Shown: positions 1,149 to 15,639 of the stretch, piece after piece | Numbering within the stretch: the stretch's first letter is position 1 | Layout: each line of letters opens with the position of its first letter | Assembly: GCA_030065825.1 (NCBI GenBank) | Contig: JASJCY010000091.1 | Location: forward strand, 1-32,474 | From: Nostocaceae cyanobacterium | GTDB taxonomy: Bacteria; Cyanobacteriota; Cyanobacteriia; Cyanobacteriales; Nostocaceae | DNA length: 32,474 nt | Reading direction: 5' to 3' | Notes under the pieces: model-generated | The model's database searches: none | The model's input: only the letters and a program-made list of their open reading frames with translations | Told to the model about the DNA's origin: nothing | Made by a program: the position numbers and the translations under genes

Positions 1149-2720
1149 ATGATGGAAAACAGAATTCTTTACGTTCGCCTTCCTTGTAACCCCATTTTCC
1201 CAATCGGGGTAGTCTACCTCAGCGATCACGTCCACAAGCTGTTTCCTACCATAGAACAGCGTATTTTTGATTTGGGGACAGTGCCACCTCTTGATTATGC
1301 CAGAGCGCTGGATCGCTGTATCGATGAGTTTAAACCAACGCTGTTAGTTTTCTCATGGCGGGATATCCAAATTTATGCCCCTGTGGGGGGACGTGGTGGT
1401 AATCCCCTACAAAACGCCTTTGAGGTTTACTACGCCAAAAATCCCTTGATTAAATTACGGGGGGCATTGGGAGGCTTACGAATTTTCATCGCTTACTATG
1501 TAGAATTGTGGCGCAATCTGGGATTAATTAAACGCGGTTTAAAACGCGCCCAGAAATATAATTCTAATGCCCGTGCAATTGTCGGTGGCGGTGCAGTAAG
1601 TGTATTTTATGAACAACTAGGAAAAAGTTTGCCCAAAGGAACTATTGTCTCTGTGGGTGAAGGAGAAACCCTGCTGACAAAACTCTTAAGTGGAAGTGAG
1701 TTTCAAGATGAACGCTGTTATGTCGTGGGAGAAACTCAACCACGTCAACGCCTAATTCACGAACAACCTACTCCTGTTGAAAAAACCGCTTGTAATTATG
1801 ACTATATAAAAGCCATTTGGGGCGAGTTTAATTATTATCTGCAAGACGGAGACTTCTATATTGGAGTGCAAACCAAACGCGGTTGTCCTCACAACTGCTG
1901 TTATTGCGTTTATACCGTCGTCGAAGGCAAACAGGTACGTATTAACCCTGCTGATGAAGTGGTTGCAGAAATGCGGCAATTATACAATCGCGGCATTCGC
2001 AATTTCTGGTTTACTGATGCTCAATTTATCCCAGCAAAGAAATTTATCGACGATGCAGTGGAACTGCTGCAAAAAATCGTTGATTCCGGGATGACAGATA
2101 TTCATTGGGCTGCTTATATCCGCGCTGACAACCTCACCCCCGAATTGTCTGAGTTGATGGTGAAAACCGGAATGAATTACTTTGAAATTGGCATTACTAG
2201 CGGTTCTCAGGAACTGGTGCGAAAAATGCGCATGGGTTACAACCTCAAAACCGTGTTGCAAAATTGCCGGGATTTAAAAGCAGCTGGGTTTAACGATTTA
2301 GTTTCTGTTAACTACTCCTTCAACGTCATTGATGAACGGAAAGAAACTATCCGCCAAACCATCGCCTATCACCGGGAATTAGAACGGATTTTTGGTGCCG
2401 ATAAAGTTGAGCCTGCTATCTTCTTTATTGGGCTGCAACCCCATACCCACCTAGAAGAATATGCCTTTAGGGAAAATATTCTACAACCAGGATATAATCC
2501 CATGAGTTTAATGCCATGGACAGCCAAAAAATTACTATGGAACCCCGAACCCCTCGGTTCCTTCTTTGGTGAGGTTTGCTTACAAGCTTGGCGACAAAAT
2601 CCTAACGATTTCGGACGGGAAGTAATGAAAATCCTGGAAGAAAGGCTAGGGTGTGCGCCATTAGAAGAAGCACTTTCCGCGCCAATTGAAAACAACGAAA
2701 AACAACTGGTGAGTGTTTAA
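1149..2720 (+). CDS. Cobalamin-binding-domain radical SAM protein (PSII high-light acclimation type)
   Basis: A 523-residue enzyme. The first 210 residues resemble a B12-binding Rossmann fold, with GGGAVSVFYEQLG and VSVGEGE near residues 147-175. The radical SAM core follows, with the iron-sulfur motif CPHNCCYC whose three ligands are C246, C250 and C253. Later segments TDAQFIP, YIRADNL and EIGITSGSQEL fit the SAM barrel. The layout and the LPCNPIFPIGVVYL opening match a cyanobacterial family I recall being annotated as a photosystem II high-light acclimation radical SAM protein. That role is family knowledge and is not shown here. ATGATG gives two possible starts one codon apart. It appears to be a single gene, followed by an inverted-repeat element at 2728. 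Confidence 0.8.
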   Translation: MMENRILYVRLPCNPIFPIGVVYLSDHVHKLFPTIEQRIFDLGTVPPLDYARALDRCIDEFKPTLLVFSWRDIQIYAPVGGRGGNPLQNAFEVYYAKNPLIKLRGALGGLRIFIAYYVELWRNLGLIKRGLKRAQKYNSNARAIVGGGAVSVFYEQLGKSLPKGTIVSVGEGETLLTKLLSGSEFQDERCYVVGETQPRQRLIHEQPTPVEKTACNYDYIKAIWGEFNYYLQDGDFYIGVQTKRGCPHNCCYCVYTVVEGKQVRINPADEVVAEMRQLYNRGIRNFWFTDAQFIPAKKFIDDAVELLQKIVDSGMTDIHWAAYIRADNLTPELSELMVKTGMNYFEIGITSGSQELVRKMRMGYNLKTVLQNCRDLKAAGFNDLVSVNYSFNVIDERKETIRQTIAYHRELERIFGADKVEPAIFFIGLQPHTHLEEYAFRENILQPGYNPMSLMPWTAKKLLWNPEPLGSFFGEVCLQAWRQNPNDFGREVMKILEERLGCAPLEEALSAPIENNEKQLVSV

Positions 2721-2727
2721 TTAAAGT

Positions 2728-2843
2728 CATATCTTGCACCATTATCAACAAGCATAGAGAAACCGGGTTTATGAAGGAAAAATTAGGGTTTTGACCGTTT
2801 AATATTTGCAATAAACCCGGTTTCTGACCCTGGTGCAAGATGT
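2728..2843. repeat. Inverted-repeat element, TCTTGCACC family
   Basis: The ends CATATCTTGCACCA and TGGTGCAAGATGTG are inverted repeats. Nested inside are AGAAACCGGGTTTA (near 2758) and TAAACCCGGTTTCT (to 2825). The whole element could fold into one long hairpin in RNA. It starts 8 bases after the radical SAM stop codon and may act as a 3' end for that transcript. Related sequence (ACATCTTGCACC followed by AACCGG) occurs twice at 18961-19148. Confidence 0.65.
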
Positions 2844-2869
2844 GTGTAAATTGACATTGCTCAATTTTC

Positions 2870-2957
2870 TGGTTACCAGCATCACCCTGGTAACTAGGAT
2901 TTCTATATCTACATTTTCTGGTTTCTGGTTACCAGGATCACCCCGATCACTAGGGTT
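2870..2957. repeat. Two copies of a GTTACCAG...CTGGTAAC palindromic repeat
   Basis: Copy one (2872-2894) is GTTACCAGCATCACC followed by CTGGTAAC, an imperfect hairpin with 8-base arms. Copy two (2927-2955) has the same start but decayed right arm. A third relative is at 31645-31670 (AGTTACCAGCGTCACGCTGG). It is a dispersed palindromic repeat with no coding potential. The rest of the 2721-3144 gap is AT-rich and otherwise featureless. Confidence 0.6.
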
Positions 2958-11669: not shown

Positions 11670-14399
11670 GTGGCTGTTGCAGTAGAAAAATTAATCACAT
11701 CGGATATTTTAAAGCCAGCTCGTTACTTAGGTAACGAGTTATTAGCCGTACATAAACCTTGGGATGCAGCAACAATACGCTGGGTACTAACCTATCCCGA
11801 AGTATATGAAGTAGGTGCATCGAATCTCGGGCATATCATTCTTTATAATATTTTGAATGCCCAGCCCCGTCAGCTATGTGACCGTGCTTACTTACCTGGT
11901 ACAGACTTATCAGCAAAACTACGGGCGAGCAGCACACCATTGTTTGCTGTGGAGTCCAAGCGATCGCTCACGGATTTTGACATTTTGGGCTTTAGTCTCA
12001 GTTATGAGTTAGGTGCAACCAACATCTTGGAAATGTTGGATTTAGCTGGTATTCCCCTAACGTGGCGAGAACGGTTAATGGGAAATCACCCACTGGTTTT
12101 TGCTGGAGGACAAACAGCGACATCCAATCCTGAACCATACGCTGACTTCTTCGACTTTTTCGCTTTAGGGGATGGGGAAGAACTACTGCCAGAAATTGGT
12201 TTAGTTCTAGAAGAAGGCAAACAAGCCGGATTAACCCGGAAAGAATTGTTGTTAGATTTAGCACAGGTTCCAGGGGTATATGTGCCGCAATTTTACGATA
12301 TGGCAGAGGATGGTTCTGTACATCCTAACCGTGGGGATGTACCCCAACGGATTTTGCGACGGGTGGCAACCCCCATCCCCGCATATTCCATTGGACTAGT
12401 TCCCTATGTAGAAACCGTACATGATCGCCTAACCATTGAAATTCGTCGCGGCTGTACTCGCGGTTGTCGCTTTTGTCAACCAGGAATGCTTACCCGACCA
12501 GCACGGGATGTGGAACCCCAAAAAGTTGTAGATGCCATTGAAAAGGGAATGGGGGAAACTGGTTATAATGAGTTTTCCTTATTGTCCCTAAGTTGTTCTG
12601 ATTATTTGTCCCTCCCAGCGGTGGGAATGGAAATTAAAAATCGTTTAAAAAACGAGAATATTTCCCTGTCTCTTCCCAGTCAAAGAGTAGATAGATTTGA
12701 CGAGAATATCGCCAATATCCTTGGGGGTACAAGGCAAAGTGGACTCACTTTTGCTCCCGAAGCTGGAACCCAGCGGATGCGGGATATTGTGAATAAAGGT
12801 TTGACCAATGAAGAATTATTACGAGGAGTCAAAACCGCTTGGGAACAAGGCTGGAATAAAATCAAACTTTACTTTATGATTGGCTTACCCGGTGAAACCG
12901 ACGTTGATGTGTTGGGAATTGCCGAAACTGTAAGTTGGTTAAGACGGGAATGTTGGGCAAAAGGGAGAAAACCGTTAAACATTAACTTAACAATTTCTAA
13001 CTTTACCCCCAAACCCCATACCCCATTTCAATGGCATTCCGTTTCCACAGCGGAATTTAAACGCAAACAGGAACTATTACGGCAAGAATTTCGCCGAATG
13101 AAGGGAGTAAAGGCAAATTTTACCGACGTCCGGATTTCAGCGATGGAAGATTTTATTGGTAGAGGCGATCGCTCTCTTGGTAAAGTATTGCATCGCGCTT
13201 GGGAATTAGGTGCGGGGATGGATTCCTGGTATGAAGGTTTAGACAAAGCTTTTGGCGCTTGGGGAGAAGCCATCGCCGAAGCTGGCTTAGATTGGAAATA
13301 CCGTCTCGTAGAAAATGGAGAGTGGAACCTGTTTCATTCTCAACAGACAAGAGGACAAGAAGAACAAGGAGAACAAGGAGAACAAGGTAGTAATCTTTCT
13401 CCCCCCTCTCCCCTCTCTCCCCTCTCTCCCTTGTCTTCCCACTCTCCACCTACTCCCCCCTCTCTCGACAAACCTCTACCTTGGGACCACATAGATACGG
13501 GTATCGATAAACAGTGGCTGCAAGAGGACTTAAAACGTGCAACAGAAGCTGCAACTGTGCCAGATTGTTCTTTTGATGGTTGTTCTCACTGTGGAGTTTG
13601 CAGTCCTGACTTTGGTCATAATATAGTGATTCCTCCCCCAGCCATCCCAGAATTTGCTGGTGAATTTGTACCAAATACTACTAAAGTCCAAAGACTGCGG
13701 GTATGGTTTGGCAAGCTAGGAGACATGGCTTTAACTAGTCACTTAGATTTAATGCGTCTATTTGATCGCGCCATGAGACGTGCTAGACTACCAGTGGCAT
13801 TTACAGGGGGCTTTCACCCCAATCCCCGGATTTCCGTGGCTAATGCTTTACCTTTAGGAGCTACCAGTAATGGCGAAATAGTAGATTTTGAATTAACACA
13901 GCTAGTAGATACCGCAAGTTTCCAGCAACAACTAGCACAAGTACTGCCTACAGATATACCTATATATAAAGTAGAAGCAGTAGATGTAAAAGAAACAGCG
14001 GCTACCCAAAGCTTAGAAACCGCAGAATATTTACTAACAATGATGGTGGCTGGTGAAGCTACATCTACCGAATGGCAAAGGTGGGTTGATAGCATCAAAG
14101 CCAAAAAAGAGATTTTTTGGGAGCATACAACTAAATCTGGTAAAACCAAATTAGTAAATCTGCGCGATCGCTTGTTTGAATTGGAATTAGTGGACTCAAA
14201 AACCAACGAAGATACTTATCCCGAATCTACAGTGGTTGTGCGTTATTTAGGCAGTTGTCGCAACAACGGTGTTTTGTTGCGTCCCCAACAAATATTGTTT
14301 ATGCTAGAACAAGAGGAGCCGCAACGAGAATTTCAACTTTTACATATCCACCGCCAACGGCTCATTTTAGCTTTTTCGACGGGAAGCCTGACATCTTAG
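11670..14399 (+). CDS. TIGR03960-family B12-binding radical SAM protein fused to DUF2344
   Basis: A 909-residue fusion protein that starts with GTG. The N-terminal part (to about 230) resembles a cobalamin-binding region (YEVGASNLGHIILYNILN). The radical SAM core has CTRGCRFC with ligands C262, C266 and C269, followed by LSCSDYLSL, FAPEAGTQRMRDIVNKG and YFMIGLPGE. A cysteine cluster (CSFDGCSHCGVC) is near residue 632. The DUF2344 domain runs from about residue 672 (RLRVWFGKLGDMALTSHLDL) to about 880. The function is unknown; the family usually lies next to the RNase E/G gene, as here. Residues 557-602 are a low-complexity insert (GEQGEQG, then PLSPLSPL) encoded by repeat-like DNA. The gene is intact despite the insert. 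Confidence 0.9.
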   Translation: MAVAVEKLITSDILKPARYLGNELLAVHKPWDAATIRWVLTYPEVYEVGASNLGHIILYNILNAQPRQLCDRAYLPGTDLSAKLRASSTPLFAVESKRSLTDFDILGFSLSYELGATNILEMLDLAGIPLTWRERLMGNHPLVFAGGQTATSNPEPYADFFDFFALGDGEELLPEIGLVLEEGKQAGLTRKELLLDLAQVPGVYVPQFYDMAEDGSVHPNRGDVPQRILRRVATPIPAYSIGLVPYVETVHDRLTIEIRRGCTRGCRFCQPGMLTRPARDVEPQKVVDAIEKGMGETGYNEFSLLSLSCSDYLSLPAVGMEIKNRLKNENISLSLPSQRVDRFDENIANILGGTRQSGLTFAPEAGTQRMRDIVNKGLTNEELLRGVKTAWEQGWNKIKLYFMIGLPGETDVDVLGIAETVSWLRRECWAKGRKPLNINLTISNFTPKPHTPFQWHSVSTAEFKRKQELLRQEFRRMKGVKANFTDVRISAMEDFIGRGDRSLGKVLHRAWELGAGMDSWYEGLDKAFGAWGEAIAEAGLDWKYRLVENGEWNLFHSQQTRGQEEQGEQGEQGSNLSPPSPLSPLSPLSSHSPPTPPSLDKPLPWDHIDTGIDKQWLQEDLKRATEAATVPDCSFDGCSHCGVCSPDFGHNIVIPPPAIPEFAGEFVPNTTKVQRLRVWFGKLGDMALTSHLDLMRLFDRAMRRARLPVAFTGGFHPNPRISVANALPLGATSNGEIVDFELTQLVDTASFQQQLAQVLPTDIPIYKVEAVDVKETAATQSLETAEYLLTMMVAGEATSTEWQRWVDSIKAKKEIFWEHTTKSGKTKLVNLRDRLFELELVDSKTNEDTYPESTVVVRYLGSCRNNGVLLRPQQILFMLEQEEPQREFQLLHIHRQRLILAFSTGSLTS

Positions 14400-14680
14400 C
14401 CTATAGGGAAGTGTCAGATGTAGCTTGCTTAAGCCTAGGAATAAGTCGCACCAAAGTTTATGATAAAATAGGGTATGTAGGTGTAATTCAATTAAATGCT
14501 CCAAATGCAGCCTACATATTGAAGAAAAATTTCATAAAACCCGGTGCGGAGGGGCATCCCGTATCGTTAATAAAGCTCATCGAGTATCCTATGCAGTAGC
14601 AGGAGTTGGTGAGAAGCCTATACTGTACGCTTGCGCTAGTGTGGGAGTATGTCACAACCGAACCATTAAACTGTTTTACC
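14400..14680 (+). pseudogene. Probable decayed 3' end of an IS200/IS605-type tnpB
   Basis: Just after the radical SAM stop codon, one frame reads NAAYILKKNFIKPGAEGHPV (14504-14563). This resembles the DVNAAYNILKK segment near the C-terminus of TnpB proteins, which contains a catalytic Asp that is missing here. It ends in a stop at 14597-14599. The next 80 bases (GAAGCCTATACTGTACGC ... GGGAGTATGTCACA) resemble what I recall of sequences at the 3' ends of cyanobacterial tnpB elements. No catalytic core is present. If correct, this is a remnant that split the neighbourhood of rne. The resemblance is short and the call is tentative. Confidence 0.35.
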
Positions 14681-14775
14681 AGGGGTAAAACAGTTTGGTT
14701 TGGAGGGTACCAACCGATAACTTTGGCATAGACGCTTTGCGAAACCTGCCATAGGCTGGCTAACTTGAGTGAAAT

Positions 14776-14836
14776 AGCAAGGTGTTTCCGGCATATGGGA
14801 AAATAGACAAGTACTATTGCTCTGTTTGCCTAACCT
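14776..14836 (+). ncRNA. Putative structured RNA motif, copy 1
   Basis: Begins AGCAAGG and ends CCTAACC. Hairpin one is TTTCC with loop GGCATATG and GGAAA; hairpin two is AGACAAG, TACTATTGCTCT, G, TTTGCCT with one A-C mismatch. A second copy with matching layout and compensatory base changes is at 15315-15375. The strand is inferred only from the plus-strand layout. The family is not recognised. Confidence 0.4.
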
Positions 14837-14982
14837 CTATTGGGGTGTTCCACGGGCATTAAAACACCCGTTGGTTTTTCCTCCGTGACTTGTAGCTTGT
14901 TTAGGTGCAGGCTAAATGCGCGGTTTCTAAACCTAATTTAAAGAAGTTTTCGATGAAGAAACATTATTTGGCGCTGCATTAA

Positions 14983-15078
14983 GTCAGAAACCCCACGGCT
15001 AAAACCGGGGGCTTGAGGTAGCCCTAATCTGACCAGACTAACGTACCTTGCGTACTACGTTAGAGGCAAGAGTTAAAG
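14983..15078. repeat. Repeat with two conserved hairpins, copy 1
   Basis: Begins GTCAGAAACCCCACGG, forms a CCCCACGG ... CCGGGG hairpin, then GCCCTAATCTGACCAGAC, then a CTAACGT ... ACGTTAG hairpin followed by AGGCAAGAGT. The same order of blocks is found at 31842-31920 with different loops. A G-rich hairpin of this form is common near ends of IS200/IS605-type elements, so this may be an element end or guide-type RNA; that is inference. Confidence 0.5.
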
Positions 15079-15314
15079 AACTAACAAGGAATGCGTAGCT
15101 AGTTCCTTGCTCTAGAACTTAAAAGTTAAACAGGTCTAAAGGGTTAAGCCAGTACTTTTAAGATACTACCCCTCCGGAGTATCTCCTCGTGAGAGGGTGC
15201 GCCAACGGGAGTCGCTCTTTGGACCGAAACCAACAAGACCGCGCTCCCTCACCGACCTCTAACATTGTCGTTCGCGCAGCGTGTGCGAAGCACTTAGCTA
15301 ACTTTACGCTTTGT

Positions 15315-15375
15315 AGCAAGGCAATTCCCGGCATACAGGGAAGTAGATAAGTACTATTCCTCTGCTTATCTAACC
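15315..15375 (+). ncRNA. Putative structured RNA motif, copy 2
   Basis: Begins AGCAAGG and ends TCTAACC. Hairpin one is TTCCC, loop GGCATACA, GGGAA; hairpin two is a perfect 7-bp stem AGATAAG / CTTATCT around TACTATTCCTCTG. The loop sequence TACTATT-CTCTG and the GGCATA loop are shared with copy 1 while stem bases differ in a pairing-preserving way. It is followed by CCCGCAAGGGGG, another small hairpin. Confidence 0.4.
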
Positions 15376-15491
15376 CCGCAAGGGGGACAGCGAATAAATT
15401 CGCGGCTCGACTGAGCTTCGCCGAACGTCCCGCGCCTTACCCCCATGTCTAAAGCCAGTTGCTCTCCTCGGTGCGGATGTTCTGGTGATTC

Positions 15492-15639
15492 TAGAGGATA
15501 GATTACACTAATCTATGTAATCCCAAAATCCGTGATCGTAGAGGATAGATTACACTAATCTGTGTAATTGCTAAATTCGTGATCGTAGAGGATAGATTAC
15601 ACTAATCTATGTAATTCCCAAATCCGTGATCGTAGAGGG
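15492..15639. repeat. 47-bp tandem repeat, three copies plus a partial
   Basis: Copies at 15492-15538, 15539-15585 and 15586-15632, then a partial TAGAGGG. Each has TAGAGGATAGATTACACTAA followed by TCT(A/G)TGTAAT and ends in CGTGATCG. Inside each unit ATAGATT and AATCTAT form a hairpin around ACACT; in copy 2 one arm has a G for A. There are no unique spacers, so it is not a CRISPR array. Confidence 0.85.

Follow-up and report, generated by a model that had tools for sequence, protein, structure and literature searches.

Two elements at the locus

The window (the whole stretch of DNA analysed here, 32,474 nt from a Nostocaceae cyanobacterium) contains two elements on the plus strand, each carrying one copy of a hairpin motif that the initial annotation had left unassigned. 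The copies were present as described at 14776-14836 and 15315-15375, with AGCAAGG, GGCATA, TACTATT-CTCTG and TAACC common to both. The third pair of stem one is indeed U-A in one copy and C-G in the other; the changes reported for stem two (C-G against U-A, and G-U against G-C) were also found, and the claim that this stem still pairs holds only in part, copy A having an A-C mismatch there too.

Element B (14983..15484, 502 nt, plus strand) is a protein-less HEARO with a 3' domain and extra inserted stretches, as judged from an Rfam match, a layout like that of other copies and the GTGA at 15485. Its core at 14983..15206 matched the HEARO family (RF02033) with 87.8 bits against a gathering score of 83, and the last 30-40 nt of the core fit poorly because about 90 nt are inserted before the motif. 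This was the sole Rfam match in the window, it lies between the two copies, and a relaxed search (E<=5) returned no family other than HEARO for the motif. The 3' domain of copy B, which includes the second annotated motif, spans 15298..15385, with stem one at 15325-15342, stem two at 15344-15372 and a CCCC-GGGG hairpin at 15374-15385. A pseudoknot strand, TTTGTAG at 15310..15316, faces its partner CTATTCC at 15354-15360 and is degenerate, with 4/7 pairs possible. A variable hairpin and a right-end hairpin follow at 15386..15484, then GTGA at 15485-15488.

Element A (14656..14952, plus strand) is the 3' part of a HEARO whose 5' part is missing, and it ends before the ATGA at 14953. It showed 81% identity over 311 nt to an element with a full core on another contig (C77) and gave no HEARO match of its own in Rfam at E<=5. 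Its 3' domain, which includes the first annotated motif, lies at 14760..14845 on the plus strand, with pseudoknot strands at 14771-14777 and 14814-14820 (6/7 pairs), stem one at 14785-14802 and stem two at 14804-14832. Copy A is thus a 5'-truncated HEARO, and copy B belongs to the HEARO at 14983. The ORF from the GTGA after element B has only 8 codons, so there is no gene there, and that from the ATGA after element A has 9 codons; neither element of the window fronts a gene.

Element A adjoins the end of an unrelated, multi-copy insertion sequence at 14390..14655 (plus strand), which lies outside the system. This remnant had 35 matches in the genome, and 21 of the other 34 end within 3 nt of the same point. 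The initial annotation had suggested a tie between the motif and the remnant at 14400, and this tie does not hold, the remnant being the end of another multi-copy element. The ORF at 14255-14599 yielded no Pfam domain, and a TnpB origin of the remnant is therefore unproven.

Two further features were observed nearby. A 909-aa ORF at 11670-14399 combines Radical_SAM_N2, Radical_SAM and DUF2344 domains in a single protein. A 47-bp tandem repeat (15485-15638, 3.3 copies, 89% matches) begins exactly at the GTGA that ends element B, and every full unit starts with GTGA.

The motif follows HEARO cores

A BLAST search of the genome of the window (7.5 Mb) with copy B gave 18 places, 3 of them short stretches without the motif; with copy A added from its own search, 16 copies were alignable over the motif. 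At E<=0.001 the same genome gave 25 HEARO matches, of which 15 exceed the cut-off. A HEARO match overlapped the motif start or ended within 100 nt of the motif in 14/16 copies, the two others being copy A and the copy on contig C84. The gap between core match and motif was 91-97 nt in copy B and in the copies on C203 and C3.

A covariance model built from these 16 copies (R1) matched 13 of 291 genomes of the order; at most 15 candidates were scored per genome, and counts for rich genomes are lower bounds. In a phylum-wide draw, 7/339 genomes matched, all 7 from the same order. A pattern search of named genomes found 29 stretches, carried by Calothrix, Nostoc, Tolypothrix, Scytonema, Cylindrospermum, Microseira, Argonema and one uncultured cyanobacterium.

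In the other genomes, a HEARO core lay directly upstream of the motif in 33/39 loci (19/20, 4/6 and 10/13 in the three sets). Many of the related elements, those in the genome of the window included, had core matches of 100-160 bits. The loci without an adjacent HEARO were L070, L082, L083, L130, L131 and L133; L130 is at a contig edge, and the HEARO match of L133 lies elsewhere on the opposite strand. The 13 carrier genomes hold 281 HEARO matches against at least 54 R1 matches. The core match usually reaches only about 10 nt into the modelled motif: the Rfam model stops where the motif starts, and this is why the motif had seemed unassigned. A free-standing new RNA family was rejected.

As read from these sequence comparisons, the motif is the 3' domain of protein-less HEARO elements, that is, of elements with an omega RNA of the IscB/IsrB type. 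The observation of the motif was sound, and the motif is part of a larger, known kind of element. Of the proposed guide RNA of a TnpB- or IscB-like system, the IscB/IsrB branch was upheld and the idea of a separate guide RNA was not. The initial annotation had overlooked the HEARO match that lies between the copies, the pseudoknot and how far the element extends.

Folding and covariation of the 3' domain

RNAalifold returned the two annotated stems and the CCCC-GGGG hairpin. A pseudoknot was spotted by eye: GGAGUAG, just 5' of CAAGG, is complementary to the stem-two loop CUACUCC. Compensatory variants of the two strands were GGAAUAG/CUAUUCC, GGAACAG/CUGUUCC, GGGGCAG/CUGCUCC, GGAAUGG/CCAUUCC, GUGCAG/CUGCAC and GUACAG/CUGUAC.

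Covariation was counted on an alignment (A2) of 53 rows, 50 of them distinct, from which L024 (the copy on C84) and L082 were left out. Changes on both sides were found in 17/22 pairs, including 4/7 pairs of the pseudoknot, which was found and counted on the same sequences. The covariation score was 0.459, compared with a mean of 0.226 (sd 0.010) after shuffling and at most 0.157 with slid partners. The earlier suggestion of selection on RNA structure, drawn from two copies, is supported by the 53 aligned copies. Two pseudoknot pairs are weak (unpaired in 22/50 and 9/50 rows), and the pseudoknot is cut to 4/7 pairs in 7/15 copies of the genome of the window, including copy B. Among single sequences, copy B folded better than its own shuffles (z -2.96), copy A folded no better than its own (z -0.45) and L064 folded weakly against shuffles (z -1.29).

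Where a right end can be recognised, hairpins follow on the 3' side of the motif up to [A/G]TGA. The motif is internal in the copies that were measured, with 69-136 nt more of hairpins before the right end, and the elements measured are mostly about 365-420 nt long.

Right ends and start codons

In 31/36 cases from the other genomes, an ORF of 60 or more codons begins directly at the right end, and such ORFs begin at 17.0% of 1567 other [A/G]TGA sites in the loci; these right-end counts were not blind, because the ends were picked by eye from lists showing ORF lengths. In the genome of the window, 4/15 right ends were at ORF starts, not above background (p 0.24). With all sites taken together and repeats at the same gene removed, 37/65 right ends were at ORF starts. 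A Shine-Dalgarno match of at least 4 nt was found at 43/65 right ends compared with 19.1% of 1881 background sites; like those of covariation, these counts are not independent events, because the copies are related by descent. The right-end count was made without L024, L083, L087 and L134 (no right end found). The set of 65 sites also leaves out L146, L147 and L162 (end missing or changed) and the repeats at the same gene site L060, L073, L080, L132, L133, L136, L140, L142, L143, L154, L158 and L159. Weinberg's 2009 description of HEARO reportedly places insertion before ATGA or GTGA.

Named genes of full length begin at a number of right ends. For GlnA, LepA, PetH, SqdB, ArgG, an allophycocyanin-like subunit and thioredoxin, the NCBIfam models aligned with the sequence behind the right end from residue 1-8 onwards, those of SqdB, allophycocyanin and thioredoxin with scores below the curated cut-offs. 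SufB also aligned from residue 1-8, its ORF being cut by the fetched stretch, and CtpB, in the genome of the window, aligned from residue 10. Pfam matches included Peptidase_S48 (presumably the HetR family), rubredoxin, response regulator, subtilase, HicB and others, with 1/10 lacking a match.

Five start-codon positions (L059/L060, L063/L073, L074/L080, L084/L132 and L070/L133) were each common to species within a genus. In two genomes of different families (G002 and G094; loci L068 and L069 / L142), a motif element sits at the start codon of sqdB; the flanks immediately upstream look dissimilar, and two independent insertions are therefore conceivable. In the genome of the window, a HicB-like antitoxin gene has its start codon at the end of the element at L022 (530-895). 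At L155, a stop follows 3 codons after the element's ATGA and a 216-codon ORF begins at an ATG located 8 nt downstream; insertion may have shifted the start here.

Precise insertion and effector genes

Two insertions were each found in 2/3 sister genomes and were absent from the third. At the empty sites, the joined flanks gave one unbroken 240-nt match at 95% identity. Since the joined flanks match without interruption, the insertion in these two cases was precise, directly before ATGA and without target duplication. The empty sites are evidence independent of the choice of right ends by eye. Precise insertion, lack of target duplication and hairpins at the ends fit a non-autonomous element of the IS200/IS605 type.

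No IscB/IsrB homology of any length was found inside the motif elements of 40 motif loci and the window. The sole strong IscB/IsrB match near motif elements was a separate IsrB gene beside the element on C16, in the region of about 1950-2900, minus strand, of L055 (G000:C16). The right end of this element meets the ATG of a 77-codon ORF, and the IsrB gene starts about 350 nt beyond that end; the sequence upstream of this IsrB gene gave no match to the Rfam HEARO model. R1 matched 0/29 IsrB loci of other genomes, and the motif as part of an IsrB gene's own omega RNA was rejected on this count. The HEARO upstream of IsrB at L091 was likewise rejected as the omega RNA of that gene, since by eye it belongs to a distinct element that lacks an ORF and has a right end of its own.

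The genome of the window encodes three IscB-like ORFs (HNH seen by eye) whose starts lie no more than about 110 nt from a HEARO core, with no R1 match in between, as well as two IsrB-like ORFs in which no HNH was seen by eye. It also gave 18 matches to Y1 transposase. IscB/IsrB relatives were present in 13/13 genomes with the motif, compared with 169/291 overall (hypergeometric p 7e-4).

Other 3' domains in the wider element group

Twenty high-scoring HEAROs without the motif were picked by hand. Another common 3' domain, the GCGUACAG type, was found in 11 of them; in 7 the sequence leads into what looks like an IscB ORF, and the tail of the remaining 2 is shorter (by eye). The loci with this second domain (L031, L182, L186-L188, L190 and L194-L199) are ORF-less HEAROs; the domain is apparently structured too and commoner than the motif in this small sample. 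The GCGUACAG-type elements have the same core family as the motif elements and a different 3' domain. Several alternative 3' domains, the motif among them, thus seem to occupy the position of the protein gene.

Several ORF-less HEAROs without the motif also end at a plausible start codon, as do 2/3 IscB elements of the genome of the window at a plausible gene start (both by eye). Among the IsrB loci, 2/30 fitted the right-end pattern of the motif elements, both followed by long ORFs (214 and 291 codons). This placement therefore seems to be a property of the wider element group. In a tree of 22 cores, the motif elements fell in two separate clades, and the 3' domain may therefore have been exchanged.

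Discussion

Read from the sequence, the element begins behind the host flank (the guide position) with the HEARO core, after which come the pseudoknotted 3' domain, a variable hairpin, a terminal hairpin and [A/G]TGA. Most copies have a Shine-Dalgarno-like stretch between the terminal hairpin and [A/G]TGA, and outside the genome of the window the right end usually falls on a host gene's start codon.

IscB elements have HEARO as their RNA, for which the name omega RNA is now in use as well (excerpts of PMC9755519). The motif elements share with RF02033 a core that matches the family (in element B above the gathering score) and an end directly before ATGA or GTGA, on the evidence of right ends chosen by eye and two precise empty sites. 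The Rfam model lacks the 3' domain and its pseudoknot, and the motif elements lack an ORF for an HNH/RuvC protein, which is optional in HEARO. The HEARO of Limnospira maxima is given as 343 nt in excerpts of PMC12286853, and as this is longer than Rfam's 211, the original HEARO definition may already contain this 3' region.

Compared with the omega RNAs of IsrB and IscB, as excerpted from PMC9581776, the motif elements are alike in the kind of core, the NTGA-type motif at the right end and the 5' guide position, and unlike in that they have no protein gene and do not lie directly 5' of isrB. In the solved IsrB RNA, two short hairpins follow the core together with the gene's own Shine-Dalgarno (excerpts of PMC9581776), whereas in the motif elements the core is followed by a pseudoknotted domain and the stretch that resembles a Shine-Dalgarno sequence comes last, at the right end, with a host gene behind it. 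TTGA and ATGA serve as target motifs for cutting by DtIsrB, and NTG is accepted by four other IsrBs (PMC9581776, as excerpted), so the target motif fits the [A/G]TGA right ends. Stand-alone omega RNAs act with IscB in trans (cited within the excerpts of PMC9581776); they resemble the motif elements in being omega RNAs without their protein gene and differ in that start-codon placement and the 3' domain are unmentioned in these excerpts. In the titles, abstracts and passages searched, those of the primary HEARO/IscB papers not among them, no description of HEARO start-codon placement or of this 3' domain was found.

We consider it likely that the motif forms the 3' domain of a protein-less omega-RNA element that is non-autonomous, IS200/IS605-like, served in trans and tolerated at start codons. 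A Y1 transposase would move the element in trans, and an IscB or IsrB encoded elsewhere in the genome would use its omega RNA in trans. Host sequence immediately 5' of the core, which natively precedes the start codon, would act as the guide, and its target would be the element-free allele. The effector may then cut or nick the element-free allele, and the element would be copied back. Insertion at start codons may do little harm since a ribosome-binding site comes with the right end, in which case the element would be transcribed as the 5' leader of the gene. The 3' domain would replace the protein gene; most likely it closes the RNA fold and separates this fold from the ribosome-binding site.

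The same elements could be transposon-end DNA only, with hairpins read by the transposase as single-stranded DNA, start-codon sites that do the least harm and an inert RNA. Precise insertion and terminal hairpins suit IS200/IS605 ends, start-codon placement is not enriched in the genome of the window, and in Limnospira HEARO RNAs, found among regulated non-coding RNAs, were set aside as mobility remnants (excerpts of PMC8400943). We nevertheless regard this explanation as unlikely, though not negligible, because the motif is internal, with its 69-136 nt of hairpins before the right end, because the pseudoknot and the G-U steps in the stems suit RNA better than DNA hairpins, and because the HEARO core is an established effector-bound RNA (PMC9581776, as excerpted).

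Somewhat less probable still is a domesticated leader without a guide role, in which no effector works and the fold merely controls downstream translation. The five start-codon positions at core genes that are common to species of one genus speak for it, but most HEARO cores still match the full model length, some insertions are recent enough to be polymorphic within a genus, and IscB/IsrB relatives occur in all 13 carrier genomes. A TnpB guide RNA tied to the insertion-sequence end at 14400, which lies directly upstream of copy A, is very improbable there and refuted as a general explanation, because the other copies adjoin HEARO cores rather than the 3' end of a tnpB element and the HEARO homology of copy A begins right after the insertion-sequence end.

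In principle, protein-less omega-RNA elements could even have turned into RNA-guided 5' leaders of cyanobacterial core genes. One transcript might serve both as an mRNA leader with a ribosome-binding site and as a guide RNA for IscB/IsrB at the start-codon region of element-free alleles, with translation control and allele homing coupled via the pseudoknotted 3' domain; we offer this as a speculative idea and think it doubtful.

The pseudoknot and, above all, the start-codon placement merit attention. Protein-less omega-RNA elements gain a covarying pseudoknot domain that is left out of the Rfam model, and several cyanobacteria have core genes whose translation start is exactly where such an element ends. 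Sequence alone gives the ribosome-binding site, the guide and the target to be expected, and there are related genomes that differ in having or lacking a given insertion. The domestication of OMEGA guide RNAs as gene leaders thereby becomes directly testable.
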